From Ruegeria lacuscaerulensis ITI-1157 (lineage in GTDB: Bacteria; Pseudomonadota; Alphaproteobacteria; Rhodobacterales; Rhodobacteraceae): 64,000 nt of DNA. A program made the position numbers and the translations under genes. The stretch is taken from contig GG704596.1 in assembly GCA_000161775.1 (NCBI GenBank), positions 1,573,593-1,637,592 of the forward strand, read 5' to 3'. How positions within the stretch are numbered: the first letter of the stretch is position 1; each line of letters starts with the position of its first letter. The notes beneath the pieces are model-generated. The model searched no databases, was not told the DNA's origin, and saw nothing but the letters and a program-made list of their open reading frames with translations. Below, in pieces: positions 11,556 through 60,467 of the stretch.

Positions 11556-11559
11556 TTTC

Positions 11560-13653: not shown

Positions 13654-13670
13654 CCGCGCCAACGTCAGTT

Positions 13671-13701: not shown

Positions 13702-13724
13702 CCCCATCCTGAAAGGACGGAACA

Positions 13725-14063: not shown

Positions 14064-14065
14064 TC

Positions 14066-15035: not shown

Positions 15036-15036
15036 T

Positions 15037-15477: not shown

Positions 15478-15500
15478 ACCACTCCTGAAAGGACAAAAAC

Positions 15501-16457: not shown

Positions 16458-16468
16458 GGAAGCTGCCC

Positions 16469-17193: not shown

Positions 17194-17194
17194 G

Positions 17195-23060: not shown

Positions 23061-23072
23061 CGAGGCGTAATC

Positions 23073-34545: not shown

Positions 34546-34609
34546 GTCGTCAGGGATTTTGGAACAGATAGCGGCCTGATCAAAGAGAGGGTCTGGCTCA
34601 TCTGGTTGT

Positions 34610-34908
34610 TCTGATGATGCGGCGGATTTGCGGTGAAGCAAGCGTCGCGTTTCGATGGTCTTCCGTTTGATCCTTTCTCGTTGTTTCAAGATTGTCTCGC
34701 CGCGGCCGAAGTAGACATCGGCAGGCGTGAGGTTCTGCAAGCTCTCGTGATAGCGTTTGTGGTTGTAGTGATCGACGAAGGCGTCGATCTGCTGTCGAAG
34801 ATCGCCCGGCAGATAGTAGTTTTCCAGCAGGATGCGGTTCTTGAGGGTCTGGTGCCAGCGCTCGATCTTGCCTTGGGTCTGCGGGTGATTGGGCCTGACG
34901 TCAGACAC
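34610..34908 (-). pseudogene. IS3-family transposase orfB, 3' fragment
   Basis: Encodes the last part of the DDE integrase core: NHPQTQGKIERWHQTLKNRI, including the final catalytic Glu, and HYNHKRYHESLQNLTPADVY. The first two thirds with both Asp residues are missing. The frame runs on into sequence antisense to the orfA fragment. Its 5' side is joined directly to the truncated integrase, so the insertion and later deletion removed the integrase end. Confidence 0.75.
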
Positions 34909-34909
34909 A

Positions 34910-36197
34910 GTTCGTCTGTTGGTGCCTGGGCCGCAATGTGCCGTTGTATCTCCTTGTAGGACAGAACTGCGGGTGGTTCGACGCCGAGGTCGGAGACACT
35001 TTTGAACAGGCGATTCAAACCATCCCGATCCCGCTTGATCCTGGCAAAAGTTCGCCTCGGGACCAGTCTCTCGCCGAGAAGCGCCCGCTTTTCCGCAACC
35101 GAGATGTCATCTCTTTCCCGGAGCTCTTCGGTCACCATCATATCATTGGCATCGGCATCCGAGATTTCCTCAGATTTCGAGCGGATCTTGCCGACCTTGT
35201 TGAAACGGTTCTTGCCATGAGCTTTGCCCTGAACCCGCGGCAAGCGGGCCTGCCAGGCGAAGAACTGTTTCTGACGCTCCTTGGTGATCGCGGTGACTGG
35301 GATGTCGCCGAAAAACTCCAACATGAGATTTTCCAGTGCGTTGATATTCCCCTGCATCGATGGCTTGGGGTAGTTCACCCGCACCTGGGCAAAGGCCCGG
35401 GACACCAGGACAGGAGCTTTGACGAAGGCGTCAAAGTCAGAAATGCCCTGCTCGGAAATAAGGGAACGGTTTGCGTGCCGGACGTCATCACCCTCGATTA
35501 CGTCGAGTTCGACATCGTTGATCCGGCGCTTGAGTGAACTTGCCTGACGCCCCAAGTCGCTCGAAATTTGCTGTGGGAGGGAGATCGCGATCAGCGTGCT
35601 TGCCTTTTCGAGAAGTTCCTGAACGCTGCTCCAGTTTTCACTGCGCGCGGCCCGGCGCAGCATTCTGTTTTCTTCTTCGAGTTCCGCGATGCGATGGTCG
35701 AGTTCCACATCAGAAGTTTCGCCTGCCTGGTTCTGTGCGGCCAGGATACGTCCCAGTTCCGCGCGCAGAACCTCTGTCAGCAGGGCCTTGGTGTCAGCTG
35801 CGGTGAGGGTTTCGGCGTTCTTTTCCATCAGGTCTTGTTCCTTCTGCTCAAGAGCAGTGAGCAGCCTCGCGGCCCGCTTCACGGCTTCGAGCGGAAGGTC
35901 GGTGCGGAGGGAAAGGCACAGAAACAGGTTTGAATGCTTGTTTGAGACCCATGTCGGCAATCGCTTTCTGAAGTAGAAGACCCGGCCCCGGCGGAGGAGG
36001 TAGGGACCGGCACGATGTCGGGGTTTCCGACGGCGCGAGTCGACGGCCCGGCGGGCATATCGCGCGACGTCTTGTGTTACAGCCTGTGTCACAGTTTCTT
36101 CGGATTGTGACACAGCGCGCGATGAGGGACGACCGAAGTCGTTGATTTCATTGCGCTGTCTGGAAAAGGTGGCTGGGGTGGTAGGAAACTCAGCCAA
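34910..36197 (-). pseudogene. Truncated tyrosine integrase of a first island
   Basis: About 425 residues remain. The N-terminal part PYLLRRGRVFYFRKRLPTWV parallels YLTRRRGIYFFRRRVPK of the complete integrase at 58129-60225 (DUF6538-like start). A helical segment and the core-binding domain follow (EERNRMLRR-type coiled coil, then FFGDIPVTAITKERQKQFFA). The whole catalytic domain is gone: the frame passes at about 34910 into IS3 sequence read out of frame. The frame's first codons overlap the tRNA-derived att core, so the native start is probably internal. Confidence 0.7.
36169..36186. repeat. Attachment-site copy of the tRNA-Gln 3' end
   Basis: GTGGCTGGGGTGGTAGGA, identical to 60392-60409 where it forms the 3' end of the tRNA-Gln gene (CCA and acceptor/T arm). 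It lies immediately upstream of the truncated integrase, in the same relation that the tRNA has to the complete integrase. This is the expected attachment-site duplication for an element inserted at the tRNA. Confidence 0.8.
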
Positions 36198-36608: not shown

Positions 36609-38867
36609 TCATCCCGAACTTTCCGGCGGCCCCGGGTTGTGGATCGCGGGTTCGGGCTGGGCCGGCTTGGCGTTGTTCGGATGAAACCCCTCCACCACCT
36701 CCCTGCAACGCTCCTTCGACAACTCCCTCTCGGTCAGCAACGCCTCTGCGACGGCGGTCAACCTGTCGCGGTTCTGCCGAAGGATGCCGTGCGCCTGCTC
36801 CAGACACGTGCCGAGAACATCCTGCACGGCGCGGTCGACGGCATCGCCGGGCCGGAGGATGGCCCCGCTGGCCGGGAGGTGCGTCAGCCTGTCGCCCATG
36901 CCCCATTCGAAGCGCATCCGACGCGCGAGGTCGGTGGCACGGGCGAGGTCCGAGCCCGGCCCATTTCCGGCGCCGCTGGAGACCTCGCCGAAGACCAGCC
37001 GTTCGGCGGCGTAGCCCGCCAGCAGGGTGCTCAGGCGGGACTGCGCGGTCTGGCGGGTTTCGATGCGGGGGCGCGGGTATTCGACCGATCCGCCATCCAC
37101 GGTGAGCACGGCGCGTTCGGGCAGGCCCAACCCGCAGGCCGTACCCACGACCATGTGGCCTGCTTCGTGGATTGCCGCGCGCCAGAGGAAATCCGTATCC
37201 GGCGGCGGCGCAATGCGACGGGCGGCGGCCTCGAGGTGGCGCTGCTGCAGGGGGTGACCTGCGGCCCGTGCCAGGCCGCGGGCATCCCGGACAAGTGCTG
37301 TGACCTGCGCGCCGGAGAGACCCAGCAGTTGGTCGGCGAGCGGGGAGAGGTTGAGGTCATCCGCATCGTCCCCAAGGGCCAGGCGCAAAATCCGGACAAG
37401 CGCTGCGCGGTCGGGATTACCCATCTCGAGCTTCAGGTCGAAGCGCCCGGGCCGAATGACGGCCGGGTCCACCATGTCCGGGAAATTGGTCGCGCCCAGA
37501 ACCACGACGCCGGCCGTGTCGTTGAGCCGCGAGAGATGCTCGAGCAACCCGTTCACCACGCCCACGATATAGTCCGACCGGCGATGCGCCGCGTTGCGGT
37601 GGGTGAAAGAATCGAGCTCGTCGAGAAAGAACACTGACGGCACCGACCGGATCGCCGCCTCGGCTTTTTCGGACAGAGCACGCAGCATGTCGCCCTGGTG
37701 GCCGTGCTTCTGGCAGTCCGAGTAGCTGGTGGCCACCAGCGGCCCGCCGATCGACCCGGCGATGGCCGAGGCAAGGAGCGTCTTGCCGTTGCCCGGCGGC
37801 CCGAACAGCAAGACCGAGGAACTGACCTCGTCCCAGCCCAACTGTCCGGACATCCAAGCCCGGACATCGGCCACCAGCCGGTCGATGGGTTCCTGCACCT
37901 CGGCGTTCAGTACCACGTCGGCAAGGGTGATCCCCGCAGGCCGCCGCATCCGCGCGGCGGCGTCGGCCAGGGCATCCGCAACCGCCAGCGTGGTAGTTTC
38001 GCAGTAGGCCCCTTCGATGACCGGCAGTGGCAGCGCGGCCAGCGCGCCGTCGGCGGGCAGCCGGTCGCGCAGGGCGTCCTCGGCGACCCGACCGGTGGCG
38101 GAATGGGTCGCGCGCAGGATCTCGATGCAGATCTCGCGCGACAGCGGCGGCAGGGTGAAGATGCGCCGGCAGAGCGCCCGCTCGATCTCGGACATGGAAC
38201 CGGTGTCGGGAAGGAAACAGATGGCCTTGCGGCCCTGACGGACGGAAGAGGCGACGGCATTGCGTCCGTCGACACCCCGCCTGGGCGCGCGATCGCGCTC
38301 GGTCGCGCTCGGGATCGGCGTGTCGATGCCGCGCCAGCGGGCACCGCCCGGAGCGTCGAGATCCGCAAGCCAGCCGAGGATGGAATCCATCTGGGCCCAC
38401 ATCAGCCGGCGATCCTCCGAACTGGGGGCGACAATTACCGTCAACGCCCGGTCCCCGGTGACGGCGGCTACGTCCTCGGGGCTGTCGAACAGCGCGGCAA
38501 AACGGGCGGCGGCGACCATCGCGTCGATCGGAGGGTCGGGCAGCCGGTTGATCTGGCCGGTGCCGTCCGCCTCGGCCCAGGGGTCTCGGCCGTCGGCGAT
38601 CGCACGGGTGATGTCGCGGTCGCGCATCCCATGCGCTGCGGGCGTGGCGCTATAAGGCTCATCCATGCGTAGGAACGGCGGCAAGGATCGCACGTCAGGG
38701 CGGGCCGGGCCGGTGTCGGACTCGTCGTCGTCAGGGCCGTTGTCCGATTGGAGATCGGCGCTCAGATCACGGTGCCACAGGGCGATGCGGCGCAGCAGCG
38801 GGCGCAGGAGCGAGAGGGCATGCGGAGACAGCGCGCCGGCGGGCGCGGGGCGTGGGGTCTGGGGCAT
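36609..38867 (-). CDS. Soluble FtsH-like AAA+ ATPase/M41 protease
   Basis: 752 residues from the ATG at 38867. Residues 1-330 are an unfamiliar N-terminal region without membrane segments. The AAA+ module follows: Walker A GPPGNGKT (about 356), Walker B SVFFLDELDS (about 411), and GATNFPDMVDPAVIRPGRFD of the second region of homology. An M41 peptidase domain has the zinc motif HEAGH (about 567) and a later GPGSDLARATDLARRM with the probable third ligand Asp. FtsH itself is membrane-bound; this one is predicted cytosolic. It is the last gene of a leftward operon with a GIY-YIG protein. Substrates unknown. Confidence 0.8.
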   Translation of the reverse strand: MPQTPRPAPAGALSPHALSLLRPLLRRIALWHRDLSADLQSDNGPDDDESDTGPARPDVRSLPPFLRMDEPYSATPAAHGMRDRDITRAIADGRDPWAEADGTGQINRLPDPPIDAMVAAARFAALFDSPEDVAAVTGDRALTVIVAPSSEDRRLMWAQMDSILGWLADLDAPGGARWRGIDTPIPSATERDRAPRRGVDGRNAVASSVRQGRKAICFLPDTGSMSEIERALCRRIFTLPPLSREICIEILRATHSATGRVAEDALRDRLPADGALAALPLPVIEGAYCETTTLAVADALADAAARMRRPAGITLADVVLNAEVQEPIDRLVADVRAWMSGQLGWDEVSSSVLLFGPPGNGKTLLASAIAGSIGGPLVATSYSDCQKHGHQGDMLRALSEKAEAAIRSVPSVFFLDELDSFTHRNAAHRRSDYIVGVVNGLLEHLSRLNDTAGVVVLGATNFPDMVDPAVIRPGRFDLKLEMGNPDRAALVRILRLALGDDADDLNLSPLADQLLGLSGAQVTALVRDARGLARAAGHPLQQRHLEAAARRIAPPPDTDFLWRAAIHEAGHMVVGTACGLGLPERAVLTVDGGSVEYPRPRIETRQTAQSRLSTLLAGYAAERLVFGEVSSGAGNGPGSDLARATDLARRMRFEWGMGDRLTHLPASGAILRPGDAVDRAVQDVLGTCLEQAHGILRQNRDRLTAVAEALLTERELSKERCREVVEGFHPNNAKPAQPEPAIHNPGPPESSG

Positions 38868-38926
38868 CAGGAGAACTCCGGACAAGGTGGAGAATGGGGG
38901 CCGCCGCTTGGCGGCCCCGGATCGGA

Positions 38927-39895
38927 TCAGGCGGCGGCGTTGTCCGGAGACTCGGAGGCGCTGGGGTCCCAGCCCGCCGCGACCGCCTCCAGCAGCGCCT
39001 GGATGTAGGACCGGGCGTGATGGTGATAGATCTCGGAGGTCGTCCGGATCGGGCCCCGGAACAGGTCGGGCGGCACGATCAGGTCCGGGCGATGCGCCTT
39101 GATATGCGCGTGCAGGGCCTTCTCGATGCAGATGGCGCGATGTCCGGACTCCATCGGCACGACGCGCAACAGCTTGCCCTTCGTCTGTCCGGGATCCCGC
39201 TGCACCTGGCGCAGGCGGAAGGCAGGGTTCGAGCTGAACCCGAGCTTGATCACAGGCAGATCGGGCAGGGTGAAGGACAGAAGATAGATCTGGCTCGGCT
39301 TCGACGCCCAGCTCTCGCCGCAGCCCGCGCAATCGACATCGCCATGGCGCATGTTGGCCACCGCCACGTCCTGCTGATGCCCGCAGGCATGGGCGTAGCG
39401 GCGATAGCTGGGGTGACGCCGCCGCGCCTGGCCGATCAGCTCCCAGCCCTGCGCCTCTGCCTCGGCGGCGTGGCGCTCCTCGGTGCAGGTCTCGCAGCTC
39501 AGTCCGTGCCCACCATCGGCGGCCCGTTCGACCCGGTGGTGCTGACGGCGGCCAGTATGGCCACAGGCAAATTCATAGACCCCGTAATGCCGGTCACCTT
39601 CGGGGTCCGGCCCGATCAGCCGGGCGCCCATCTTCCGGGCGGCCTTTGCGCGGCGGGCGGCGATGCAGTGGGGGCATTCGGGCGCGTGATCGCGCACCAC
39701 ATTGATGCGTTTGAGCGTGGGCTGGCCGCAGGCATGGCAGCCGAGGACCACATGCAGGCGATCCACCGCGCGGCCGATCAGCGAGAATCCTTTGCGCTCG
39801 GCGGCGGCGGTCCAGTGACGTTTGACAGGGCCGAGGAAGACGGGATGGAATGCCCCATCGATGGGGAACGGGAACAGCGTGGTGCTGGTGGGCAT
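38927..39895 (-). CDS. Zinc-ribbon GIY-YIG nuclease-like protein
   Basis: 322 residues from the ATG at 39895 (CCGGAG upstream). Residues about 50-205 contain three zinc-ribbon-like repeats with paired Cys: CHACGQ to CPHC, FACGHTG to CETC, and HACGHQQ to CAGC. The C-terminal 110 residues resemble a GIY-YIG/T5orf172-type fold: QIYLLSFTLPDLPVIKLGFS, then NPAFRLRQVQRDPG with the conserved Arg, and ICIEKALHAHIKAHRP with the conserved Glu. Likely a DNA-binding nuclease or a decayed relative. Leader sequence TGTCCGGAGTT is shared with the protease gene. Confidence 0.7.
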   Translation of the reverse strand: MPTSTTLFPFPIDGAFHPVFLGPVKRHWTAAAERKGFSLIGRAVDRLHVVLGCHACGQPTLKRINVVRDHAPECPHCIAARRAKAARKMGARLIGPDPEGDRHYGVYEFACGHTGRRQHHRVERAADGGHGLSCETCTEERHAAEAEAQGWELIGQARRRHPSYRRYAHACGHQQDVAVANMRHGDVDCAGCGESWASKPSQIYLLSFTLPDLPVIKLGFSSNPAFRLRQVQRDPGQTKGKLLRVVPMESGHRAICIEKALHAHIKAHRPDLIVPPDLFRGPIRTTSEIYHHHARSYIQALLEAVAAGWDPSASESPDNAAA

Positions 39896-40802: not shown

Positions 40803-41086
40803 CTATTAGAGCGAAAAATCCGCAGGGGTCATATCACGGACACAATAGACAACAACGCTGTCACACTAGGGGCGGAAACTGGAAATTCGCTGCATTTGCC
40901 TCTAATGGCAGCTATGCGCGTAGAGTGGACTTTGAAAAACGCGTGATCTGTGTCCAAAATACTTCCGCTCACCTGAATGATCTTCCGATTACTGTCTGCA
41001 ATTTCTGAATCTGTGGTGGGTGGTGTCCAGAAAATACTTCTCCTATAAATTGTCTAGCGCGCACGGAGATTAGTTGAAGTAGATTG

Positions 41087-42133
41087 ATGAAAGAACTGTT
41101 GAGAACGATGCGTCACAGGATGACGTGGACGAATGCACGAATGCTTCTTCGGATGGGGGGAGTAGCGACCAGCCACGGGTGGGATCAAACTCTCAAAAAG
41201 GTAGAAGAGTCCGGAGTAGAAGTTGAGTACGGCAAGCTCGAAGATTGTCTGGTTGAGCATCTTTTGTGCGGTGAAAAGTTCACCAAATTGTACCCGGTTG
41301 ACCCCTCTCAGCGCGCGGCACTGCAAGCAAAAATTGTAGAGACTGAACTTAGTGAAGCGCCCTCTGCGAAGGCATATCCCTATTTGGTTCCCGACGATGT
41401 ATTGTCCGACGGTACGGGAGACCTGAATGTCGTTCGGGTTGAAAGCAACGAAGATGGCGTGGGCATTCTCTTCTCTTCCGTACTTTGGGTGAAGACGAGG
41501 GAAGAAATCTCATTCGAAGACTTCGGAGAACCAGAAGACATGCGTGGCAGGTACGAAGAGGTCATAGGCCTCGCCCGTAGGCCGGTGCAGATGTACCATG
41601 TTGTCTGGCTGCCGCACCATCGCGATTTCTTGGAAGTTCGGGTCGATTCACCTCGCGGCATCGTTGAAGCGGATATTCATGCTTTGCATTCTCGCCTCAA
41701 GGACGAAGTGAATTCGTGGGGGGTGGCTTCACTTGACGGGTCAGTAAATCTCTTTCCTGCTGTTCGTCCGTTCTACGATGACGCTACGGAAGGTACGGTC
41801 ACACAGATGACCTTCCAGACAACTACGGGAGCGATCAAAGACGAAAAGATGCCTCGCCGCAGGAGGGACTCCGATCAGCGAACCGAAGCGTACCATGTTG
41901 CTGGCAAGGAAGCGGTAGATGCGATTGCGATTTATAGGATCACAGTGGAGTGGGGCTTTCGGGAAGATGATCTGACTTTCAGTCCTTCCGTGACACTGGC
42001 CGCATCCGGCCCGTCTGGTGGCAACAGTAAGGACCCGTTGATAACTGGCGCTCTGATTAAAAACTGCGTACGTGCCTCTGATTACGAGTTCGCTATTGAA
42101 CGACTCGGAAAAAAGGCCAAACTTGAGCACTGA
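41087..42133 (+). CDS. Unknown protein, first gene of a three-gene operon
   Basis: 348 residues from the ATG at 41087; no strong ribbon site, and Met 41108 is an alternative. The N-terminal 80 residues are helical and Met-rich (LLRTMRHRMTWTNARMLLRM). The rest alternates strands and loops (VGILFSSVLWVKTREEISFE, PVQMYHVVWLPHHRDFLEVR). No domain recognised. It is followed after 12 bases by a 132-residue protein and then a PD-(D/E)XK-like protein. The lower GC of these three genes and their place in an island suggest horizontal transfer; a defence role is a guess. Confidence 0.55.
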   Translation: MKELLRTMRHRMTWTNARMLLRMGGVATSHGWDQTLKKVEESGVEVEYGKLEDCLVEHLLCGEKFTKLYPVDPSQRAALQAKIVETELSEAPSAKAYPYLVPDDVLSDGTGDLNVVRVESNEDGVGILFSSVLWVKTREEISFEDFGEPEDMRGRYEEVIGLARRPVQMYHVVWLPHHRDFLEVRVDSPRGIVEADIHALHSRLKDEVNSWGVASLDGSVNLFPAVRPFYDDATEGTVTQMTFQTTTGAIKDEKMPRRRRDSDQRTEAYHVAGKEAVDAIAIYRITVEWGFREDDLTFSPSVTLAASGPSGGNSKDPLITGALIKNCVRASDYEFAIERLGKKAKLEH

Positions 42134-42145
42134 GCGATATCGCGT

Positions 42146-42544
42146 ATGGGCATGGATATTGGAGAGTTCAGGGAGAGTCTGGCTTCGTCGGACTTGGAGC
42201 CTAAAACGCTAGGCGTATGCTTGGCGTTAACTGATATTCTTTCGAAAATTCGGCCCGGAGACGGCCAGCACCTTGGGTTGTCCTACTTTCGGGAAAGGCT
42301 TGATAAGGGTTCGCGGGCCGAGGAAATCTTACCAGCATTGAGTGTCTTGTGTACCTTCGAGGGCGCAATACTGGAAATGCATGGATATCTCGATGACGAC
42401 GACGAAGGTCAGTTGCACTTGGAAGACGAGGATTTTCAGGGCCTGCTTTTCACGGGCAAGTTGGCGCATCCTGTAACCGGGGACTTGGTTGACGATCCTC
42501 TCGAACACGTCAGGTTTTTCTATTCTTTGCGGAGTGACGCATAG
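42146..42544 (+). CDS. Unknown acidic protein, second gene of the operon
   Basis: 132 residues, strongly acidic (YLDDDDEGQLHLEDEDFQGL), with a helical N-terminal half (LASSDLEPKTLGVCLALTDI). ATG 42146 or 42152. No family recognised. It ends one base before the nuclease-like gene and would work as a partner subunit or an inhibitor of it; both are inferences from gene order and charge. Confidence 0.5.
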   Translation: MGMDIGEFRESLASSDLEPKTLGVCLALTDILSKIRPGDGQHLGLSYFRERLDKGSRAEEILPALSVLCTFEGAILEMHGYLDDDDEGQLHLEDEDFQGLLFTGKLAHPVTGDLVDDPLEHVRFFYSLRSDA

Positions 42545-42545
42545 G

Positions 42546-43166
42546 ATGGGGGCCGAAGATCTTTCAGTTCGAGATTTTCTGAACATTTTCGGGGATGACG
42601 AGGGGTTGCGAGGACTGCGGTGGAAGATCGCAAAGTGCTCGAAATTGCGCGTAGAGCTTATAGAAGAAGCTTTGGCGGACTTTTATGGTAGATTGGTGGA
42701 TGCCCGGAAAGACAAAGAGAAACTGGGTGAGAACACACTAACACGTCACTTGGCAGACATGCTCACTGCGTGTGGTATTCCCGCAAAACGTGAGGAGGAC
42801 GTGAACGGCCATTGCGATCTTGTGATCCGAGCAAGTGGCAACTTTCTATGGCTGGGTGAAGCTAAGGTTCACTCGGATTATGGATGGCTGGATGACGGGT
42901 TTCAGCAACTGTCGACTAGGTACGGCACTGCCATGGAAGGTCGCGATCACGGCGAACTGATAATTTATCACCGAGGTGGAGATAGTCGAAATGTCCTGCA
43001 AACTTGGAAGGAACGACTTGTCGCTGCAAATGACAATGTTGTCGTTTCCGAAGATATCGAAGATCAACGTCTATATTTTAGAACCGAACACAAATGTGCC
43101 AACTCCGGCTGCACTTTCTATACGCGGCATCACATTGTTCCCTTGATGCATGATCCCAAGAAATAG
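42546..43166 (+). CDS. PD-(D/E)XK nuclease-like protein
   Basis: 206 residues from the ATG at 42546. Residues 63-110 show a restriction-endonuclease-like core: TLTRHLADMLTACGIPAKRE (helix), GHCDLVIRASGNFLWLGEAK with Asp91, Glu105 and Lys107 as the D-(X)n-E-X-K triad, then WLDDGFQQLSTRYGTAMEGR. The C-terminal HKCANSGCTFYTRHHIVPLM has Cys and His residues that could bind zinc. It closes the three-gene operon. The triad is complete, so it may be an active nuclease; its target is unknown. Confidence 0.6.
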   Translation: MGAEDLSVRDFLNIFGDDEGLRGLRWKIAKCSKLRVELIEEALADFYGRLVDARKDKEKLGENTLTRHLADMLTACGIPAKREEDVNGHCDLVIRASGNFLWLGEAKVHSDYGWLDDGFQQLSTRYGTAMEGRDHGELIIYHRGGDSRNVLQTWKERLVAANDNVVVSEDIEDQRLYFRTEHKCANSGCTFYTRHHIVPLMHDPKK

Positions 43167-43354
43167 GTAAGTAGGAAGGCACGGTTTCGGCTGACACCGG
43201 TCCTAAGGGTAGGTCTGCTTAAACGGCAGCTCTGGGCCGTCCTTGCATCACATATCGACCGAGATCGGGCACGTCCCGCCCCATCCGAGGTCAGTTTCGA
43301 GCCCTTTCCTCCATTTGATTGACGAGTAATCTCACAGACGATAGCAAGTGTTTT

Positions 43355-43402
43355 ATGGAAAACACTACGATCATCGCAATGACTTGGTGGCTGGCCTCCT
43401 GA
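43355..43402 (+). CDS. Trp-rich leader peptide of trpS
   Basis: Encodes MENTTIIAMTWWLAS, 15 residues with tandem TGG TGG codons (43385-43390) ending in TGA 12 codons before the terminator stem. An internal ATG (43379) could give a 7-residue form. The ribosome-binding site is weak. Overall it resembles Trp leader peptides upstream of trpE in rhizobia. It is meaningful only together with the attenuator stems at 43393-43460. Confidence 0.7.
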   Translation: MENTTIIAMTWWLAS

Positions 43403-43460
43403 CAGGGTGGCCGGATGACCAAACGTATTCCGAGGCCGCCGCATGGGCGGCCTTTTGTTT
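43393..43460 (+). promoter_or_regulatory. Transcription attenuator in front of trpS
   Basis: Four mutually exclusive segments are visible. Segment 1, GGCCTCC (43393-43399), pairs with segment 2, GGTGGCC (43406-43412). Segment 2 can instead pair with segment 3, GGCCGCC (43434-43440). Segment 3 pairs with segment 4, GGCGGCC (43446-43452), which is followed by TTTTGTTT. The 3:4 stem is a strong intrinsic terminator. A ribosome stalled on the Trp codons would cover segment 1, favour 2:3 and allow read-through into trpS. Confidence 0.75.
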
Positions 43461-43506
43461 TCCGAGCCTCCTGATGCGCGGCCTCTCGTTTCAAGGGAAG
43501 ACGCAA

Positions 43507-44508
43507 ATGAACAAACCAACCATTCTGACAGGCGACCGCACCACGGGACCGCTTCACATTGGGCACTATGCAGGCTCGCTTGCCAATCGGCTGCGCTATC
43601 AGGGCAGCCATGAACAATTTCTGCTGCTGGCGGATACCCAAGCCCTAACCGACAACACCCATGACCGGGAGAAGGTGCGTCGCAGCGTGATGGAGGTTGC
43701 GCTGGATTATCTTGCCGTGGGCATTGATCCATCGCGAACTACGATCTGCCTGCAATCGCATCTTCCGGCGTTGGCCGAACTGTCGATGCTCTACCTGAAC
43801 TTCGTCACGGTAGCGCGGCTTGAACGGAATCCGACGATCAAGGACGAAATCCGCGCGCGCGGGTTCGGGCGCGATATTCCCGCCGGGTTTCTGTGTTATC
43901 CGGCAGCACAGGCGGCGGATATCACGGGCTTCAAGGCGACAGTCGTTCCGGTCGGCGAGGATCAGGCTCCGCTAATCGAGCAGACGAACGAGATCGTGCG
44001 GCGCATAAACGCAACCGCAGGTCGCCTCGTGTTGCCGGAAGCGCGGGCGATCATCCCCAACGCGGGCCGGTTGCCCGGGGTCGACGGCAAGGCAAAGATG
44101 TCGAAATCCGGAGGCAACGCCATTCCGCTCTCCGCTTCGCCCAACGAGATCCGAAATGCTATCAGGGCGATGTTCACAGATCCGAATCACCTGCGTGTCG
44201 AAGACCCAGGCCGTATAGAGGGCAATGTCGTCTTTAGCTATCTCGATGCATTCGACCCGGACCAAGACCGGCTCGCCGAACTTAAAGCGCACTATCAGCG
44301 CGGTGGACTTGGCGATGGCAAGATCAAGGCGCGTCTGGAAGCCATCCTACAGGAGCTCATAGCGCCAATTCGCGAGCGAAGGGCGCAGTTGTCCGAGGAC
44401 CAAGGATACGTTCTCGAGGTGATCAAAGAGGGCACGGAACGGGCGCGAGAGCGCACCGAGGCGACAAAGAACGAGGTGGTGAGCGCCTTGGGTCTGTTCC
44501 AGTTGTAG
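43507..44508 (+). CDS. trpS: Tryptophan-tRNA ligase
   Basis: 333 residues from the ATG at 43507, with AAGGGAAG upstream. Class I synthetase signatures: DRTTGPLHIGHYAG (HIGH motif, residues 7-20) and GKAKMSKSGGN (KMSKS, about 195). VVPVGEDQAPLIEQTNEIVR is characteristic of TrpRS. It charges tRNA-Trp. Its place on a mobilizable island, and the Trp-codon attenuator in front, suggest an auxiliary synthetase induced when Trp-tRNA runs low, possibly protecting against a natural TrpRS inhibitor such as indolmycin (inference; the housekeeping trpS would be elsewhere). Confidence 0.85.
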   Translation: MNKPTILTGDRTTGPLHIGHYAGSLANRLRYQGSHEQFLLLADTQALTDNTHDREKVRRSVMEVALDYLAVGIDPSRTTICLQSHLPALAELSMLYLNFVTVARLERNPTIKDEIRARGFGRDIPAGFLCYPAAQAADITGFKATVVPVGEDQAPLIEQTNEIVRRINATAGRLVLPEARAIIPNAGRLPGVDGKAKMSKSGGNAIPLSASPNEIRNAIRAMFTDPNHLRVEDPGRIEGNVVFSYLDAFDPDQDRLAELKAHYQRGGLGDGKIKARLEAILQELIAPIRERRAQLSEDQGYVLEVIKEGTERARERTEATKNEVVSALGLFQL

Positions 44509-44800
44509 ATGGCCAAAGGCGGGCGAGCCGGATGAAGGTCCGATTCGTCGGAGGTCCCTACCTCCAAACTGATTGCGATTTTGCGGTTGCAGCTAAAGTC
44601 TGGAATGCGGGCTGCGACCGCAGCATTTGAGAACCGTGCTCAAGGTCCGCTCAGGGCCGTCCCTGTCGGTGGGACCTGGGTCAATCCCCAATGATGTCGC
44701 GAGGCGGCTAACGGCAGGACTGAGCCCATATCTACGTGTTTGCCGCATCGCCGCGAAAGGCAGGTTCACGTCAGTTAGACAGAACTGAGGCCCCGCAAGA

Positions 44801-45433
44801 TCAACCCGGGTGCTTATACGATGACATTGCCTCCATCATCGTGGTTCGGTCCTGAACCGCACCTGTCTGCAGATACTCCATCGCTTTGAGCGCCGCCTCG
44901 TGTGCCTCCACTGACGAGCCGCCGACGCAATCCTCCGCCACGCGACAGAAGTAGTCAGACTGGTGCCCATCCACGAACGTGTAGTGGACACAAACATCTG
45001 TCAGTCCGCCGCACAGCAGCAGCGTATCGACTTTCAGGCCTCGTAATAGAATTTCAAAGTCAGTTCCGAAGAAAGCCGAATAACGCCGCTTGGGGATGAT
45101 ATAGTCGCCTTCGCGATATCCCATTTCCTCTTTGGCGACTTCCGTGCGCGGATCGCCCTCAAGGCAATGGACGTCCTCATCTCCGTCCAACTCTCGACCG
45201 AAATCGATCAGATCGGGACGATGGACTTCCTGGATGAAGATCACGGGGATATCGTTCTTATGAGCCGCATCGACCAGACCGCGCGCGGCGATCATGCGAT
45301 CCTTGTAACCCGGCATGTTGTCGATGGACCGCACTTCGCTGTTGTCAATGAACGTGCTTTTCTGAATATCGATTACGATGAGCGCGGGCCGACCCTCAAT
45401 CAGGTTTCTTGCTGTTTTCGTCTTTGTTGTCAT
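44801..45433 (-). CDS. Isochorismatase-family cysteine hydrolase
   Basis: 210 residues. The cysteine hydrolase triad is readable: Asp in ALIVIDIQKST (about residue 22), Lys in IIPKRRYSAFFGT (about 115), and Cys in CGGLTDVCVHYT (about 148). It lies 18 bases after the Gdx exporter gene under a guanidine-II riboswitch. Hydrolases of this superfamily cleave amide-like bonds, and members occur in guanidine-responsive operons. A guanidine-related amide or carbamoyl substrate is likely but unproven. Confidence 0.75.
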   Translation of the reverse strand: MTTKTKTARNLIEGRPALIVIDIQKSTFIDNSEVRSIDNMPGYKDRMIAARGLVDAAHKNDIPVIFIQEVHRPDLIDFGRELDGDEDVHCLEGDPRTEVAKEEMGYREGDYIIPKRRYSAFFGTDFEILLRGLKVDTLLLCGGLTDVCVHYTFVDGHQSDYFCRVAEDCVGGSSVEAHEAALKAMEYLQTGAVQDRTTMMEAMSSYKHPG

Positions 45434-45451: not shown

Positions 45452-45769
45452 TTAATGCGCATCTGAGCCGAGCAGGAACATCCCCGCAACCAGAAGTGCC
45501 AGACCAGCAATTCCGGACATGCTGAGGTTTTGATTGAAGGCCAACACGCCAACCAGCACCGATCCGACAGAGCCGATACCGGTCCAGATCGGATACGCGA
45601 TCCCAAGCGGGAGCCGGGTCATCGCGGCATAAAGGGCGACGATGCTGGCAATCATTGCGATTAGGGTCAGGACACCAAGTGTCCAATTGAAACCAATGCC
45701 GAGCTTCTTGACACCTGTTGCCCAAGCGACTTCAAGGGCACCTGCAATGAAAAGGTAAATCCAAGCCAT
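45452..45769 (-). CDS. gdx: Guanidinium exporter Gdx/SugE (SMR family)
   Basis: 105 residues, four membrane segments, the standard SMR size. The first helix WIYLFIAGALEVAWATGVKK carries the essential Glu13, and AYPIWTGIGSVGSVLVG matches the Gdx (SugE) subtype rather than EmrE-type multidrug pumps. GGAGGTCGAA precedes the ATG at 45769. It exports guanidinium in exchange for protons. A guanidine-II riboswitch lies directly upstream, which strongly supports the subtype. Confidence 0.9.
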   Translation of the reverse strand: MAWIYLFIAGALEVAWATGVKKLGIGFNWTLGVLTLIAMIASIVALYAAMTRLPLGIAYPIWTGIGSVGSVLVGVLAFNQNLSMSGIAGLALLVAGMFLLGSDAH

Positions 45770-45787
45770 TTCGACCTCCAGCTATCG

Positions 45788-45832
45788 CAGGTCGTCCTGA
45801 CAATTGCCCTTTCATGGCCGGGTCGTCCCGGC
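45788..45832 (-). ncRNA. Guanidine-II (mini-ykkC) riboswitch
   Basis: On the minus strand two short hairpins each present an ACGA loop: GCCGGG-ACGA-CCCGGC (45832-45817) and CAGG-ACGA-CCTG (45799-45788), separated by 17 bases. Two ACGR-loop stems in front of a ribosome-binding site define the guanidine-II class. Guanidinium binding in the loops is known to stabilise loop-loop pairing and expose the ribosome-binding site, here GGAGG before gdx. Confidence 0.88.
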
Positions 45833-46127
45833 AGGCTACTGGCCATGCGATAGATGTGGGATGTTGCGTTGTCAATCTTTCAGGCAACCAAGTGATAGCA
45901 TTGAAAGCGGACCTTTGCGCAGCCGCAGCGAACTAACGCTTCGTCCGCACTGTGCGAATTCGTCACCGTCAAGATTGAGCACGTGCAGCGAGTGTCTAGA
46001 AAGCAGGCTGCGCCTGCAGCATCCGGCATTGGCGCCGAGAGTCCGCTTAGGGCCGCCTGCGAAAGCTGTAAATCGGCATTCAAAAGTGCCCGTCCTGATA
46101 TTTCTGTTCAGAAGCTTCCTCACGAAT

Positions 46128-50537: not shown

Positions 50538-50581
50538 AAGATTTCCCATTGCTAGCCTTGTTTTCGAATCAAGGTGCAAGG

Positions 50582-51247
50582 ATGCTCAGGTACGTATTTG
50601 CGGAAGAATTGGATAAATTCCCCAAACTGGCAGAAGGAATGTTCCGGGATCGCGCGGATCAGTTCAAGACTCGGCTGGGGTGGGATGTCCGGGTCAACGA
50701 AAACGGAGAGGAACGGGATCAGTACGATGACTTGAACCCCCTTTATGTTATCTGGGAAGAAGAAGATGGCAGTCACGGTGGCTCCATGCGCGTTCTGCCG
50801 ACCACTGGACCTGTTATGGTGAATGAAGTGTTCGGACATCTAACCGGTGGAAAACTGATTTGCAGCCCGCTGATTTGGGAGGTTACACGCTTTTGTCTAT
50901 CGCGTACGGCCGGCCCCCAAACGGCGGGGGCCATCATGCTCAGTGGTGGTGAAATGATGGAAGGGTTTGGCTTGACCCATATTGCGGGTGTTTTTGATGC
51001 GCGTATGGTTCGGATTTACCGGCTGATCGGGTCTTCGCCCATTATCTTAGGCTCTGAAGGGAAGGGGCGCGATCAGATCTCAGTGGGGCTGTGGCCTTAT
51101 TCCGCTGAGGATTGCAACCGCGTCGCCGAACGTGCGGGCATTATGAGAAATCTGTCGCGGTTATGGTTCAAGGCATCTTTCGCTGGAAGAACGGACAGTT
51201 TTCCGAGTTGGGGGCATACGCAAAAAGGGCATCAGAGAATTGCGTAG
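50582..51247 (+). CDS. luxI: Acyl-homoserine lactone synthase, LuxI family
   Basis: 221 residues from the ATG at 50582. Conserved LuxI positions are present: Arg and Phe in FRDRADQFKTRLGWDV, Trp in LGWDV, Asp pair in ERDQYDDLNPLYVIW, and the SMRVLPTTGPVMVNEVF strand with the invariant Arg. It makes an acyl-homoserine lactone from SAM and an acyl carrier. No luxR gene lies within several kb; an IS5 element begins 10 bases after the stop, so a partner may have been lost or lies elsewhere. Confidence 0.88.
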   Translation: MLRYVFAEELDKFPKLAEGMFRDRADQFKTRLGWDVRVNENGEERDQYDDLNPLYVIWEEEDGSHGGSMRVLPTTGPVMVNEVFGHLTGGKLICSPLIWEVTRFCLSRTAGPQTAGAIMLSGGEMMEGFGLTHIAGVFDARMVRIYRLIGSSPIILGSEGKGRDQISVGLWPYSAEDCNRVAERAGIMRNLSRLWFKASFAGRTDSFPSWGHTQKGHQRIA

Positions 51248-55690: not shown

Positions 55691-55917
55691 ACTTCCCTCG
55701 GAACGCGTTTGGGGGCGAGAAACTTGGCCATGTCTGGAAGGCGCGGTTCGACGGTGTCTCTGACACTGCATATTCTGTAATCGCCCCTCCGAAATCAGGT
55801 TATCCACATCTGTCTTCCGGCAGCCTCTGTTGATCGGCTTTTATTCACATAACTGCTGAGTTGAACGAACGATCAAGGCCCCTCAAGTGGGCCCAGATTT
55901 TGAGCAGAGGAAGCGGC

Positions 55918-56250
55918 ATGGGCGAGAATCCGGACAAACGCGACGTGCGGTTGAAGGTGAATGTGACGCCAGAAGAACGGGACCTGCTTGATGCAAAGGC
56001 AAGAGCCTCGGGTCAGACGCGTTCAGACTTCATGCGCGAAGCCGCCCTTGGTCGCCGCGCGACCGTCTCACCTGAGAAAATACTCGACGGCATCTGGGTC
56101 TTGAACCTCGTCTTGGGCCACCTCCAATCCATCGCTGAATTGCCGCCGACGGACGCGCCCGACTACGCTTTGATCCTCCTGGAGCTGCATCGGATTGAAA
56201 GTATGATCCTGATGTTTGCCCCCGTTGGTTTCACCGGGGAGGACGGCTGA
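55918..56250 (+). CDS. mobC: MobC-like relaxosome accessory protein
   Basis: 110 residues from the ATG at 55918 (GAGGAAGCGG upstream; an earlier in-frame Met at 55861 lacks a site). KRDVRLKVNVTPEERDLLDA, then KARASGQTRSDFMREAALGR, is the ribbon-helix-helix pattern of MobC/NikA proteins that bind oriT and help the relaxase. Its last base is the first base of the relaxase gene. An oriT would be expected upstream, in 55700-55900. Confidence 0.75.
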   Translation: MGENPDKRDVRLKVNVTPEERDLLDAKARASGQTRSDFMREAALGRRATVSPEKILDGIWVLNLVLGHLQSIAELPPTDAPDYALILLELHRIESMILMFAPVGFTGEDG

Positions 56251-58010
56251 TGTTGATCGGTTGGTCGAAACACCAGTCCAGTGAAAGTCTGCGCCAGCCA
56301 GCCTCATATCTGCTGGATCAGGAAGTTCGAAAGCCTGTCGGGTCAGCGGAAGTCGTTGAAAGGCGCGTACCCGTGCCGGAACTTCTGGTCGGCCATCCCG
56401 CGGTGTTTCAGAGCGCTGTCTTTGCGCTTCGCTTCAAGAGGAAATACCGGGTGACGACGCTTTCGTTTCATTGCGAAGACATCGACGTCCACGCTTTCAA
56501 TGAAGGTAATGAAGCCGCCAGGAGACAGGTGTCCGCCGCGATCGATCTGTTCCTCGAGGTCGCCTTTGCAGGAATTCCGGAACCATCCCGGCCGCCGGTC
56601 CTCGTCGGAACTCATACGCATCTTGACCGGTTGGAGATCAACGTCGCCATCCCGAGATTTATCAGGACTGCTGAAGGTTCAGTCCGCAGTTTCAACCCGC
56701 ATCCCCCGAAGCGGGGCAGCGGATTTCTGTGGGATGCACTGCGCGATGTGCTGAATTTCAGTTTCGGCTGGCGCAGCCCGAATGACGGGACCGCCGCTCA
56801 AGAGCTCCGGGGGCCTGACTGGGTTGAGAAGCGTCTTGCCGCCGCTGAGCGGCATGGAACGACCTTCGATCCTGCGAAGGACCCGAAGCCTTTCTTGCTG
56901 CAGGCTGCGAGGGTCATCGCGGCACACCATGCCGCGGATGCTTCGAACCCATACGGCAAGCCGTTTCCGGAGATCGTGGCGGACCTTGGATTCCGCATCG
57001 AGCACCGGAACAGGTTCTCGATGAGGCTGGTCCACCCCGATGATCCTCATCCGCTGCTTGTGCGTGGCCGGCGCCCCCTGAGCCACGGCGATATCGCGCC
57101 GGATCCCACCGAGGCGTTGGAGAGGCTGCGGCGTTACTGGACGCGGCGGGCGCAACAGAATTCGAAACGGTTCTCACAGGGAACATGGAGCGAACCTCAG
57201 CCGGACTGGGCGTCGCGGCTGGAAGCGCCCGAGGTCAGGATTCCGCCCTGCCATCCTGATTTCGCAGGCCCAAGCAGTGCTGTGCCCTCGCCGGGGATGC
57301 CCCTGCGGGTGAAGCCTCAGGTCTACCTCTCGGCCATGGCCAAGGCGCTCGGCGTCATGATGGCCGAAGCTCGAATCCTGCAGTACTTGTCGGCCGTCCC
57401 CGTGGCCCCCTTCAACTCACTGGCAAATAGATTGGAGAAACTGAATGCCGAATACGACCAAACCCGCCTCGATGGAGGCCCTGATGGAAGAACTGTGCGA
57501 TCTGCTCCGCCAGGTTCTCGGCCGCGGCGCGGACGCTCAGAGTTCGGCGCGGATCAACGAACTTCTTTCCGAGATCGGGCGGATCAGGGTCGCGATGGAG
57601 CGGCAGACCGAAAACCTGGAGGCGATTCGTCCGGGGCTTTCCGCTTTCGAGGCCATGAGCACCCGGCTGGAAAACGTGGAGAAGAACCAGCAGCAGATGC
57701 TGTCAGCTGTCGAGTGGTTCTGTCGGACCTTGGGACATCCGGCCTTTCACGAGGACGACTGATCGGCCTGATCGTGCGTGCTGCCCGGGGAGTTTTTCCC
57801 GGGAAGCTAGCTGCACTGGCAATGGATCAGGAGCGCAGGCTGCAAATCCGCATCGCCGATGTCATGATCCAATTTTGTCCGGATGGAACCGTGAGAGGCG
57901 TCGGTGATCCGGAGAGGGTCGGCGCGGTGGTTGACGCTTTAGCGGAGTATATTCCCATCCGCTCCGGAGAGGCGACTGCTCAAGTCAGTACGGATCAGCC
58001 AAGTCTGTGA
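56250..58010 (+). CDS. Relaxase/mobilization protein (MobP/VirD2-type)
   Basis: 586 residues. The N-terminal 300 residues are relaxase-like, with the metal-binding His motif VGTHTHLDRLEINVAIPRF near residue 120 and a possible active Tyr in SYLLDQEV. Residues about 400-505 are low-complexity Arg/Gly/Asp sequence coinciding with a nested gene in another frame. The last 80 residues look like real protein again (RIADVMIQFCPDGTVRGVGD). Together with MobC it would nick oriT; no mating-pore genes are present, so transfer needs a helper. Confidence 0.7.
   Translation: MLIGWSKHQSSESLRQPASYLLDQEVRKPVGSAEVVERRVPVPELLVGHPAVFQSAVFALRFKRKYRVTTLSFHCEDIDVHAFNEGNEAARRQVSAAIDLFLEVAFAGIPEPSRPPVLVGTHTHLDRLEINVAIPRFIRTAEGSVRSFNPHPPKRGSGFLWDALRDVLNFSFGWRSPNDGTAAQELRGPDWVEKRLAAAERHGTTFDPAKDPKPFLLQAARVIAAHHAADASNPYGKPFPEIVADLGFRIEHRNRFSMRLVHPDDPHPLLVRGRRPLSHGDIAPDPTEALERLRRYWTRRAQQNSKRFSQGTWSEPQPDWASRLEAPEVRIPPCHPDFAGPSSAVPSPGMPLRVKPQVYLSAMAKALGVMMAEARILQYLSAVPVAPFNSLANRLEKLNAEYDQTRLDGGPDGRTVRSAPPGSRPRRGRSEFGADQRTSFRDRADQGRDGAADRKPGGDSSGAFRFRGHEHPAGKRGEEPAADAVSCRVVLSDLGTSGLSRGRLIGLIVRAARGVFPGKLAALAMDQERRLQIRIADVMIQFCPDGTVRGVGDPERVGAVVDALAEYIPIRSGEATAQVSTDQPSL
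57445..57762 (+). CDS. Nested gene inside the relaxase frame
   Basis: 105 residues in the +1 frame of the relaxase gene, fully inside it. The protein looks more natural than the overlapping frame: helical, with a heptad-like segment (RIRVAMERQTENLEAIRPGL, STRLENVEKNQQQMLSAVEW). MobC/relaxase operons often have a small coiled-coil protein after the relaxase. The overlap may therefore mean that the relaxase originally ended near 57440 and now reads through by chance, or that both frames are used. Confidence 0.6.
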   Translation: MPNTTKPASMEALMEELCDLLRQVLGRGADAQSSARINELLSEIGRIRVAMERQTENLEAIRPGLSAFEAMSTRLENVEKNQQQMLSAVEWFCRTLGHPAFHEDD

Positions 58011-58128: not shown

Positions 58129-60225
58129 CTAGGCCGAGGCTCCAAGGTCGATGCCGGAGATGAGCCTTGGCAGGAGTTGCACAGCGGCGTAGAGCGGCCC
58201 CAAGGGCTTCTCTTCCCGGCGATAGGTGCCAGTGTTCACGTCGATCTGTTTGTGTCCGAGAAGATCGCGGCGATCAATGTCGCTTACAAGCAAGGTCAGG
58301 CCGTCTTTTACGCGGGCGTTGATCAAGGTGTCATTGACGTAGTGGCGCAGGCTCTTGGTGCTGTATCTTAAGGGGTTGCCGTCAAGGCTGCGTGAAAGAC
58401 ACTCGCGCATAACATGATCGAGATTGTCACCGAACTTCGGATTGTAAGGTGGTGGCGGTGCATGCAGATCGAGGCACGCATCACGGATTTTTGCTGGAAC
58501 CGCCGCCGGAAACAAAACAAATTGCTGTTTCGATTTGATTGTCGCAACGAACTCCAGAAAGCCCAATTCGATCACTTCCGGATGAATCGGGATCCGACGT
58601 TTGCTGTGCTTGTTCTTGAGGCCGCGCAGGTGGTTGGCGCGAATGTAGATGTAGGGAATTCCATCTTCTTCAAGGACATCGGTGACCAAGAGACCTGCGA
58701 TCTCGGCGCGGCGTGCACCGGTATGTGCGAGCAGCAAATTAATCCAGTAATGATGATCCTTAAACAGCTTGTTCCCAGGTTTGTGCCGGTCACGGAAATT
58801 CTTGCACCCTGTCCAAAGTGGGTGGGCAAAGAGCCTCCGGACGTCGGGAACGGTGAAGACAGCGGTCTTTTCCGCGTCGGTTCGATCGTCCTCCGGAACC
58901 AGGTTTGCGACCTTTGGCGTTCGGAATACCGGGGTTCCTTCGTACTCGGCATGCTCTACGACTGATTTGATCGTCGTGAGGTGTCGCTCGATGGTTCCGG
59001 CCTCGAGCCCGATCTTGTCATCGGGAATGGTCTTGGCGTCGTCAAGAAGTTCTTTGAAGGTCAAAGCCCGCTGGCGCGGAGATTTCCAATAGTGTTTCGG
59101 CATCATTTTCGCCATTGCGTTGGCAAAGATTTCCAGGTGATGGGGCCGGATATCGGTCACCAGCTGAATGCCAGTGATGTAATCGAATAGCGTGACGGAT
59201 TTGAGGTGCTGGTTCTTGGTCTCAGCATTGCACTTCTTTTTTCGTGTCATCCGAACTGCGACACCGAACAGGTCGTTCCCGTAGACACGTTCGACCCTCG
59301 CGTCTTTGGCTTCGCCCGAAAACAGCGCTTCCTCCGGTTGCTGGAGCGCCTGATCGCGTTGTTGCGCAATCGAATCTGCCGTGATGCGACCTTTGATCAA
59401 CGGAACGCCGGGCGTGAGCACTGGGGCCGCCAGTTGGCGTGGTTCCGCTTGGCGCGAGCCCGACGTGCCGGGCACAACCGATGACTCCTCCGTGGATTGG
59501 GTCGTGCCGCTGTTGCCAAGGGCATCTTCGGCCGGTGTCGGGTGAGTGGGCCTGTCGGTTCCATCGACCAAAGTCTGCAGCATTGCTGCAGCTGCGCTGC
59601 GCGCGGCCGAGCTGGAATGAAGTGGCACGGTTTGCACGGCGTCATGCGCTGCCATGCGGGCTTCCACTGCGGCCCAGCGGAGACGCAGCTTTTCGTGCTG
59701 TGAAAGATGTTCGGGGCGCTTCAATTGAGCCGCGCGTTCTTGAACGCTTTGATTGAATGCCGGTGAAATGAATTCCCTGAATTTGGTTGCCTGGATACGC
59801 GCTGCGATCGGTCGCTCATCGATCGGAAGCTGAAGCAGCCGTTCCGTTGGCATCTCCTCGCGCAGGCCGTCCTCGACAAGGCTGCGAAGAACAAACGCTT
59901 CGAGGCGATGGTGGCGCGCGCGTTCCGCCGTCAGGGATCCATCCATTCGCTCGATCATCCGTGCATTTCGCAACTCGTCCAGATAGGCGCGGAGCTCGGC
60001 CTTGAAGAAGGCCGGAGCATCGACTTCTGGCAGCGTGAGATGTGCGTTTTTCTCGAGCATTCGATCCATGTGTGCGGTCAGTTGCACACAGGATCTATGA
60101 GCCGAGTTTCGATCCGTCGTCCCCAAGGACACCATTACCGGCGGCAAACATGTGGATAACTTGGGCACCCGCCTGCGAAAGAAGTAAATCCCGCGGCGTC
60201 GCGTCAGGTAAAGAGTGCCGTGCAT
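58129..60225 (-). CDS. int: Tyrosine integrase of the tRNA-Gln island
   Basis: 698 residues. N-terminus GTLYLTRRRGIYFFRRRVPK is DUF6538-like, followed by a long helical middle and the catalytic domain. Box I Arg is in AHTGARRAEIAGLL (about 503); box II reads KSLRHYVND, with Lys where most integrases have His before the conserved Arg; LLGHKQIDVNTGTY holds the third-box His and the nucleophile Tyr (about 663). It is encoded towards the island interior, starting 168 bases from the tRNA-Gln gene, and probably integrates and excises the 36.2-60.4 kb element. Confidence 0.85.
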   Translation of the reverse strand: MHGTLYLTRRRGIYFFRRRVPKLSTCLPPVMVSLGTTDRNSAHRSCVQLTAHMDRMLEKNAHLTLPEVDAPAFFKAELRAYLDELRNARMIERMDGSLTAERARHHRLEAFVLRSLVEDGLREEMPTERLLQLPIDERPIAARIQATKFREFISPAFNQSVQERAAQLKRPEHLSQHEKLRLRWAAVEARMAAHDAVQTVPLHSSSAARSAAAAMLQTLVDGTDRPTHPTPAEDALGNSGTTQSTEESSVVPGTSGSRQAEPRQLAAPVLTPGVPLIKGRITADSIAQQRDQALQQPEEALFSGEAKDARVERVYGNDLFGVAVRMTRKKKCNAETKNQHLKSVTLFDYITGIQLVTDIRPHHLEIFANAMAKMMPKHYWKSPRQRALTFKELLDDAKTIPDDKIGLEAGTIERHLTTIKSVVEHAEYEGTPVFRTPKVANLVPEDDRTDAEKTAVFTVPDVRRLFAHPLWTGCKNFRDRHKPGNKLFKDHHYWINLLLAHTGARRAEIAGLLVTDVLEEDGIPYIYIRANHLRGLKNKHSKRRIPIHPEVIELGFLEFVATIKSKQQFVLFPAAVPAKIRDACLDLHAPPPPYNPKFGDNLDHVMRECLSRSLDGNPLRYSTKSLRHYVNDTLINARVKDGLTLLVSDIDRRDLLGHKQIDVNTGTYRREEKPLGPLYAAVQLLPRLISGIDLGASA

Positions 60226-60391: not shown

Positions 60392-60409
60392 GTGGCTGGG
60401 GTGGTAGGA
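60392..60409. repeat. Attachment site at the 3' end of tRNA-Gln
   Basis: GTGGCTGGGGTGGTAGGA, covering the CCA end, discriminator, acceptor stem and part of the T arm of the tRNA gene. An identical copy at 36169-36186 marks the other end of the island. Confidence 0.8.
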
Positions 60410-60467
60410 TTCGAACCTACGATACACGGTACCAAAAACCGCTGCCTTACCACTTGGCTACACCCCA
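60393..60467 (-). tRNA. tRNA-Gln (anticodon TTG)
   Basis: Reading the minus strand from 60467: acceptor TGGGGTG, D arm TAGCCAAGTGGTAAGG, an anticodon arm with loop TTTTGGT and anticodon TTG, T arm with GGTTCGAATCC, acceptor CACCCCA, discriminator G and an encoded CCA. All arms pair. The gene is intact, and an island is attached to its 3' end. Confidence 0.93.

Follow-up and report, generated by a model that had tools for sequence, protein, structure and literature searches.

The window, a stretch of 64,000 nucleotides from Ruegeria lacuscaerulensis ITI-1157, contains a trpS gene on its + strand (43507..44508, ATG at 43507) encoding a tryptophanyl-tRNA synthetase (TrpRS) of 333 amino acids. 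The protein matched PF00579 (1.6e-50) and, over the cut-off, TIGR00233; it was assigned to the TrpRS II type, since its best PDB match was the TrpRS II structure 2a4m (E 3.3e-110), and the HIGH and KMSKS motifs were present. Upstream of it on the same strand, an open reading frame of 15 codons plus stop (43355..43402; ATG at 43355, TGA at 43400-43402) was read from the sequence, encoding the peptide MENTTIIAMTWWLAS with tandem Trp codons, TGGTGG, at 43385-43390. When about 2 kb were scanned for terminators, a terminator-like hairpin of 9 pairs was obtained at 43432-43454, followed by the tail TTGTTTTCCG; 5 terminator-like sites were seen in the scanned 2 kb, 2 of them being the trpS-leader terminator, versus 1.8 expected from shuffles. 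Judged by sequence only, an intrinsic terminator is present ahead of trpS. The order proposed in the earlier note, a 15-residue leader with tandem Trp codons, then a terminator and then trpS, agreed with the sequence, coordinates included.

The attenuator itself is composed of segment 1 (43385..43396, +), segment 2 (43406..43415, +), segment 3 (43429..43440, +), whose pairing partner is either segment 2 or segment 4, and segment 4 with the U run (43446..43461, +), the terminator spanning 43432-43461. Its structure was analyzed in an alignment of 18 homologous leaders, window included (A2). Homologous leader peptides include MENTMIIAMTWWLAS, MVNTSIIAMTWWLAS and MKRTIIIAHLWWLAC, and the residues preceding the two Trp vary widely among relatives. 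RNAalifold recovered the predicted 1:2 stem and the 3:4 stem unprompted. The 2:3 helix consists of 10 pairs, 4 of them with compensatory change, and its covariation score of 0.213 was reached by none of 500 shuffles, whereas slid versions scored 0.126 at most. The 3:4 helix was paired in 98.1% of the cells of the alignment and, because it is nearly invariant, no double compensatory changes were found in it among the 18 copies. Hence, of the three stems that had been proposed beforehand, 1:2 and 3:4 were returned by RNAalifold and 2:3 was backed by covariation. Folding of the window segment alone was only mildly better than that of shuffled sequences (z -2.03; 7 of 200 shuffles equally good); therefore, the strong evidence is the conservation.

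Furthermore, the effect of the position of the ribosome was modelled by folding transcripts truncated at the terminator loop, ahead of segment 4, for the 45 of 53 leaders whose hairpin was at least as stable as -10 kcal/mol. Segment 3 was predicted to be paired upstream with a probability of 0.78 when the ribosome was placed on the first Trp codon versus 0.07 when it was placed on the stop codon, and the corresponding values for the E. coli trp leader were 0.62 and 0.00. A difference in the same direction and larger than 0.1 was obtained at 41 of the 45 loci, and no separation was seen at the other four (L055, L125, L130 and L135). Covariation, RNAalifold and ribosome-position folding together showed an antiterminator (2:3) and a terminator (3:4) that exclude each other. 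Equilibrium folding was rejected as a proof of state-dependent termination: at most loci the terminator was favoured at any ribosome position, with little discrimination. Since the terminator is favoured in nearly all states, the outcome would have to be set by timing while the RNA is being made, as in textbook attenuation.

A segment located after the terminator (43474..43485, +) is complementary to segment 3, with a duplex of -21.5 kcal/mol that none of 200 shuffles equalled. This complementarity was good in most of the 18 copies, broken in L121, and matched or exceeded by more than 20 of 200 shuffles in L006, L131 and L165. A translational layer, in which this fifth segment would mask the Shine-Dalgarno (SD) site of trpS, was considered and discarded, the predicted accessibility of the SD site being barely dependent on the ribosome position in most of 25 loci and the complementarity being broken in L121.

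Conservation among alphaproteobacterial leaders pointed to a promoter at 43319..43347 (+), with TTGAC as the -35 element 36 nt upstream of the leader ATG and a weak -10 region. Of the 33 such leaders compared, with one locus counted twice, 17 have TTGAC 35 or 36 nt upstream of the leader ATG, 28 have CTTG or TTGA at -41 to -32, and one has an SD-like motif. This promoter was not among the predictions of a simple sigma-70 scan. The leader is probably translated without an SD site, and the promoter spacing is consistent with a leaderless transcript, as described for the leaderless ORF trpL of Sinorhizobium in the accessible portions of two publications (PMC10117765, PMC7298713).

The stretch shared with close relatives was short. 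Four genomes with TrpS proteins 90-92% identical were compared by blastn over 12-17 kb around trpS, and the matches, of about 1.25-1.35 kb, covered 43222-44563 (L183), 43296-44549 (L185), 43282-44549 (L186) and 43298-44549 (L187) of the window. The sole further match in the DNA compared was one of 311 nt to 34587-34893 (L187), outside the island described below, and the ten neighbouring proteins searched were different at each locus. Given that the similarity is limited to about 1.25 kb and that the neighbours differ, the conserved unit (43296..44549, +), consisting of the promoter, the leader with its attenuator, trpS and a 3' hairpin obtained by folding (44522..44549, +) at which the similarity ends, is smaller than the island. 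A protein flanking the L187 copy matched Pfam AtaL.

The island has a length of about 24 kb and is flanked by an exact 18-bp direct repeat of the 3' end of a tRNA-Gln gene, the left copy at 36169..36186 and the right one at 60392..60409, where it overlaps the end of the tRNA-Gln gene (60393-60467, -). In four genomes of the genus the similarity to the window breaks at 60392/60393, and no blastn match to the island was found in the 11-15 kb beyond the tRNA in them; a short match of L189 to 35837-36009 lies outside the left repeat. The island encodes a putative integrase with a DUF6538 domain (58129..60225, -; PF20172, 1.2e-7), in which no match to a catalytic integrase domain was obtained, a NikA-like accessory mobilization protein (55861..56250, +; PF21983, 1.6e-12) and, directly after it, an ORF of 586 amino acids (56250..58010, +) that gave no Pfam or NCBIfam match and, by its position, is a possible relaxase. 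The location of trpS on a mobilizable island, as suspected from the first inspection, is consistent with the tRNA-Gln repeats and with the NikA-like protein.

Several other features were recorded on the island and next to it. Adjoining trpS, a Guanidine-II riboswitch (45787-45834, -; 35.2 bits versus a gathering score of 32) lies upstream of genes for a small multidrug resistance transporter and an isochorismatase-like hydrolase (45452-45769 and 44801-45433, both -). Three consecutive ORFs just upstream of the trpS unit (41084-43166, +) gave no Pfam or PADLOC match. The island also encodes a protein of the autoinducer (acyl-homoserine-lactone) synthase family (50549-51247, +; Autoind_synth, 1.1e-22) and an AAA ATPase of 907 amino acids with an M41 peptidase domain (36609-39332, -), whose ATPase part matched PADLOC IetA models (best 1.9e-24). 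A second DUF6538 ORF (34686-36197, -), adjoining an ORF that looked transposase-like by eye, is located at the left repeat, which suggests tandem elements at the tRNA-Gln site. A prophage occupies about 7800-23100 (+) to the left of the island, with a GpA-type terminase, a capsid protein with protease, a tape measure protein and a tail protein.

The conservation of the leader was analyzed in the best 80 of 584 TrpS loci (GTDB contigs) together with family and class genomes. A TrpS match at E 1e-60 or better was present in 14 of the 394 genomes of the family sample and in 35 of the 385 of the class sample, the window's own genome being included in each; one relative with a partial gene (L133) was excluded, and one locus was entered twice (L008 and L132). 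A leader was scored when a compact ORF with TGGTGG at most 7 codons from its stop was found within 400 nt upstream of trpS. Such a tandem-Trp leader was present in 49 of 121 relatives: 9/9 at 80% TrpS identity or more, 22/26 at 70-80% (12/13 at 74.5-80% and 10/13 at 70-74.5%) and 18/86 below 70% (17/63 at 60-70% and 1/23 under 60%). In the chance control, 18 such ORFs were counted per 1,349,241 strand-bases of flanks, i.e., 0.005 per 400 nt; the leader upstream of trpS is not a product of chance. Of 91 plasmid records, nine were read, with hosts ranging from Roseibium to Klebsiella, E. coli and Salmonella, and each of the nine copies carried a leader with two adjacent Trp. On the plasmids of the last three hosts (L170-L173) the TrpRS II genes have WWLP leaders, and a predicted fosfomycin-resistance stretch lies near L171.

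A hairpin 3' of the leader, at -10 kcal/mol or better and with a T-containing tail, was found in 45 of 53 leaders (window included), the hairpin being weak in 3 and absent in 5. Copies closest to the window have a strong tail; that of the rhizobial copies is poor, without a good U run. Eleven copies with leaders ending in WWRSF, WWRST or WWRSV (L009, L010, L012, L018, L021, L022, L026, L043, L076, L137 and L139) retain segments 2 and 3, but their U run is poor; in leaders of this type the SD site was predicted to be partly paired, and the control may be partly translational. On the question of whether the leader and stems are conserved in orthologues, raised in the earlier note, both were found conserved in the closer relatives, with covariation in the 2:3 helix, and most relatives below 70% identity are without the leader (18/86 with it). 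The same note had described the attenuated trpS as island-borne: the gene does lie on an island, but the arrangement is not specific to that island and is the usual layout among the relatives examined at 70% identity or more.

Additionally, a covariance model, R1, was built from the 18 copies of A2 and searched in 39 sources totalling 299 kb, of which 35 contain a TrpRS II locus and 4 do not. At E 0.1 or below, 22 matches were obtained, window included, every one of them at a trpS leader. R1 matched 21 of the 34 other trpS loci, including rhizobial, beta- and gammaproteobacterial copies outside the training set, and missed 13; 7 of the 21 matches were weak (E 0.016 to 0.083). There were no matches away from leaders in the 299 kb and none in the 4 non-target sources. 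With stricter filters, R1 matched in 15 of 289 alphaproteobacterial genomes, and all three matches above 40 bits precede TrpRS II genes; this survey counts matches, not misses, and may or may not include the TrpRS II genomes G447, G514, G529 and G728. Other genes under an attenuator of this type were not recognised among the weaker matches: L195 (36.5 bits, E 2.0e-6) shows no Trp leader, and L205, the only one among the weaker matches with a tandem-Trp ORF, has a very short one located before an unrelated ORF. The Rfam model RF00513 (Trp_leader) matched 43379-43460 at 32.7 bits, under its gathering score of 41 bits, and at that score it was listed neither in the window nor in 12 relative loci. 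A second RF00513 match in the genome (L084, 30.4 bits) was rejected as a trpE leader: the ORF that follows it looked by eye like a short-chain dehydrogenase, and no tandem-Trp leader is seen there. No tandem-Trp leader was found upstream of the R. lacuscaerulensis trpE.

The genome contains a second TrpS (C1:581196) of type I, with 30% identity to that of the island, which supports the earlier proposal that the island gene encodes an extra, non-housekeeping TrpRS. No tandem-Trp leader was found at 13 other TrpS loci examined, this copy and 12 more. TrpS genes were counted for 65 of the 80 best loci, 15 of them from a first set of 16 (L006 was left out) and 50 from a second set, to which a limit of 1e-10 was applied, and a second match of 25.5 bits in two Cupriavidus genomes, which fails that limit, was not counted. 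Single-Trp leaders, recognised by eye in L037, L046, L049 and L063, were scored as lacking a tandem-Trp leader. By hand count, 34 of the 45 genomes with at least two TrpS genes have the tandem-Trp leader, and of the 20 with a single gene one does; the Fisher value of 6.9e-8 is too optimistic because the genomes are related to one another, so that it describes an association and is not a tree-aware test. At least 4 of the 11 two-gene genomes scored as negative are the single-Trp cases just named. The 20 single-copy genomes include 8 of Acinetobacter and 4 of Cupriavidus, and every alphaproteobacterial genome of the 65 has at least two TrpS genes. The tandem-Trp leader is thus associated with the spare-copy status of TrpRS II, which fits a role in sensing that the main enzyme has failed. 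The sequence parts, their conservation, the covariation and this association are the established part of the attenuator model.

These results argue, with a probability of about 0.87, for a Trp-codon, ribosome-mediated transcription attenuator that controls the gene of a spare TrpRS II. From its parts we infer a leaderless start, ribosome stalling, termination with read-through and the physiological signal. The transcript would start at or beside the leader AUG. When Trp-tRNA is sufficient, the ribosome would reach the stop codon and cover segment 2, the 3:4 hairpin would form and the RNA polymerase would halt at the U run. When charged tRNA-Trp is short, either through Trp shortage or because the housekeeping TrpRS is inhibited, the ribosome would stall on UGG UGG over segment 1; 2:3 would form first, 3:4 would come too late, and trpS would be transcribed. 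The spare TrpRS would thus probably be switched on only at a shortage of charged tryptophan tRNA.

Regarding the purpose of such a switch, the unit could confer inducible resistance to natural inhibitors of TrpRS, for example indolmycin: a blocked housekeeping enzyme would raise uncharged tRNA-Trp, which would turn on an insensitive TrpRS II. His43 of the Bacillus TrpRS contacts indolmycin, and its change to Asn gives resistance, as stated in the available part of PMC4899734. In an alignment of selected proteins (A1), this column held Gln45 in 8/8 TrpRS II rows and His in 2/2 type I rows, among them the second TrpS of this genome. Streptomyces also possesses an indolmycin-resistant second TrpRS (PMC9437257, in the part available), and the distribution of TrpRS II is patchy and mobile, with 14 of 394 family genomes, own included, and plasmid copies. 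Nevertheless, Gln45 also occurs in genomes in which no TrpRS other than TrpRS II was found (Cupriavidus L016, Acinetobacter L030), and therefore it is a family trait that by itself does not prove a role in resistance. Indolmycin resistance of the island enzyme is plausible, and we place this function a little below even odds. With the same attenuator mechanism, the spare TrpRS might instead be a reserve enzyme with other kinetics for general Trp scarcity, a reading to which we would give somewhat less than an even chance. The attenuator would respond to the level of charged tRNA irrespective of why it changes. No indolmycin-type gene cluster was recognised among the neighbours, of which few were seen per locus, although there is the AtaL match at L187 and the predicted fosfomycin-resistance stretch near L171. 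Against this reading, a presence as patchy as 14/394 genomes is more in keeping with a niche threat than with starvation, which is universal.

Two further functions were weighed. In Deinococcus, TrpRS II is a partner of nitric oxide synthase. Nitration of tryptophan by the two has been reported (PMC9437257, in the part available), and the closest solved relative of the island protein is a TrpRS II structure, 2a4m; nonetheless, a nitric oxide synthase (PF02898) was found in 0 of 10 TrpRS II host genomes tested, own included, versus 2 of 14 control genomes, and such a partnership is very improbable here. It is also unlikely that the terminated leader RNA and its peptide are the main product, acting in trans like rnTrpL and peTrpL of Sinorhizobium, with trpS read-through being secondary. 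The architecture is similar, and there was a weak match to the model of the sRNA RcsR1 (16.9 bits, cut-off 60, E 0.53), which we take to be the same RNA as rnTrpL; against this, the three strongest R1 matches in the 289 alphaproteobacterial genomes all precede TrpRS II genes, and the peptide residues before the two Trp are highly variable.

A regulatory device familiar from textbooks is here coupled to a mobile spare tRNA synthetase, and a simple rule is suggested: a leader accompanies those TrpRS II genes that are additional copies. Tentatively, and with more doubt than confidence, it may be proposed that a Trp-tRNA-sensing attenuator and a TrpRS II insensitive to inhibitors, moving horizontally as one compact unit across alpha-, beta- and gammaproteobacteria, form a self-inducing shield against natural products that block TrpRS, enterobacterial plasmids included, the attenuator being kept in spare copies and absent where TrpRS II is the sole synthetase. 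Inducible tolerance to TrpRS inhibitors may have here a reservoir that has gone unrecognised.

The kind of attenuator is already known from trp operons and from trpS of Streptomyces. Its pattern in proteobacteria, with mobile spare copies, did not appear in the openly licensed literature searched, in which no proteobacterial trpS with a Trp-codon attenuator was reported beyond the leader coding sequence of Caulobacter. There, an alphaproteobacterial trpS mRNA carries a putative small leader CDS (PMC4117421, in its accessible text), and the likeness is known as a small CDS alone. The trp operon leader RF00513 has its parts in the same order, and that of E. coli behaved alike in the ribosome-position model; the Ruegeria leader differs in scoring under the gathering threshold, in preceding a different gene and in being likely leaderless. 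The rhizobial trpE(G) attenuator (trpL/rnTrpL/peTrpL) also has a leader of 14-19 amino acids with consecutive Trp codons, leaderless in S. meliloti (PMC7298713 and PMC10117765, as excerpted). It controls trpE, whereas the Ruegeria leader precedes trpS and its own trpE is without such a leader. For Streptomyces, attenuation of the gene of an auxiliary indolmycin-resistant TrpRS was reportedly described by Vecchione and Sello in J Bacteriol in 2010. Attenuators of Streptomyces trpS genes include the predicted one of trpS2 in S. avermitilis (PMC1262725) and trpL2-trpS of S. lividans, seen by RNA-seq (PMC8079986), as far as the accessible parts of these sources go. In both cases a Trp-codon leader stands before trpS, the one of S. 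lividans being leaderless and monocistronic, and an auxiliary indolmycin-resistant TrpRS is known in the genus (PMC9437257, in part). The S. lividans leader is actinobacterial and, in the available text, has one Trp and no U-rich tract, in contrast to the tandem Trp and strong terminator of Ruegeria. Unlike those of Streptomyces, the Ruegeria unit is small and occurs in varied proteobacterial contexts.
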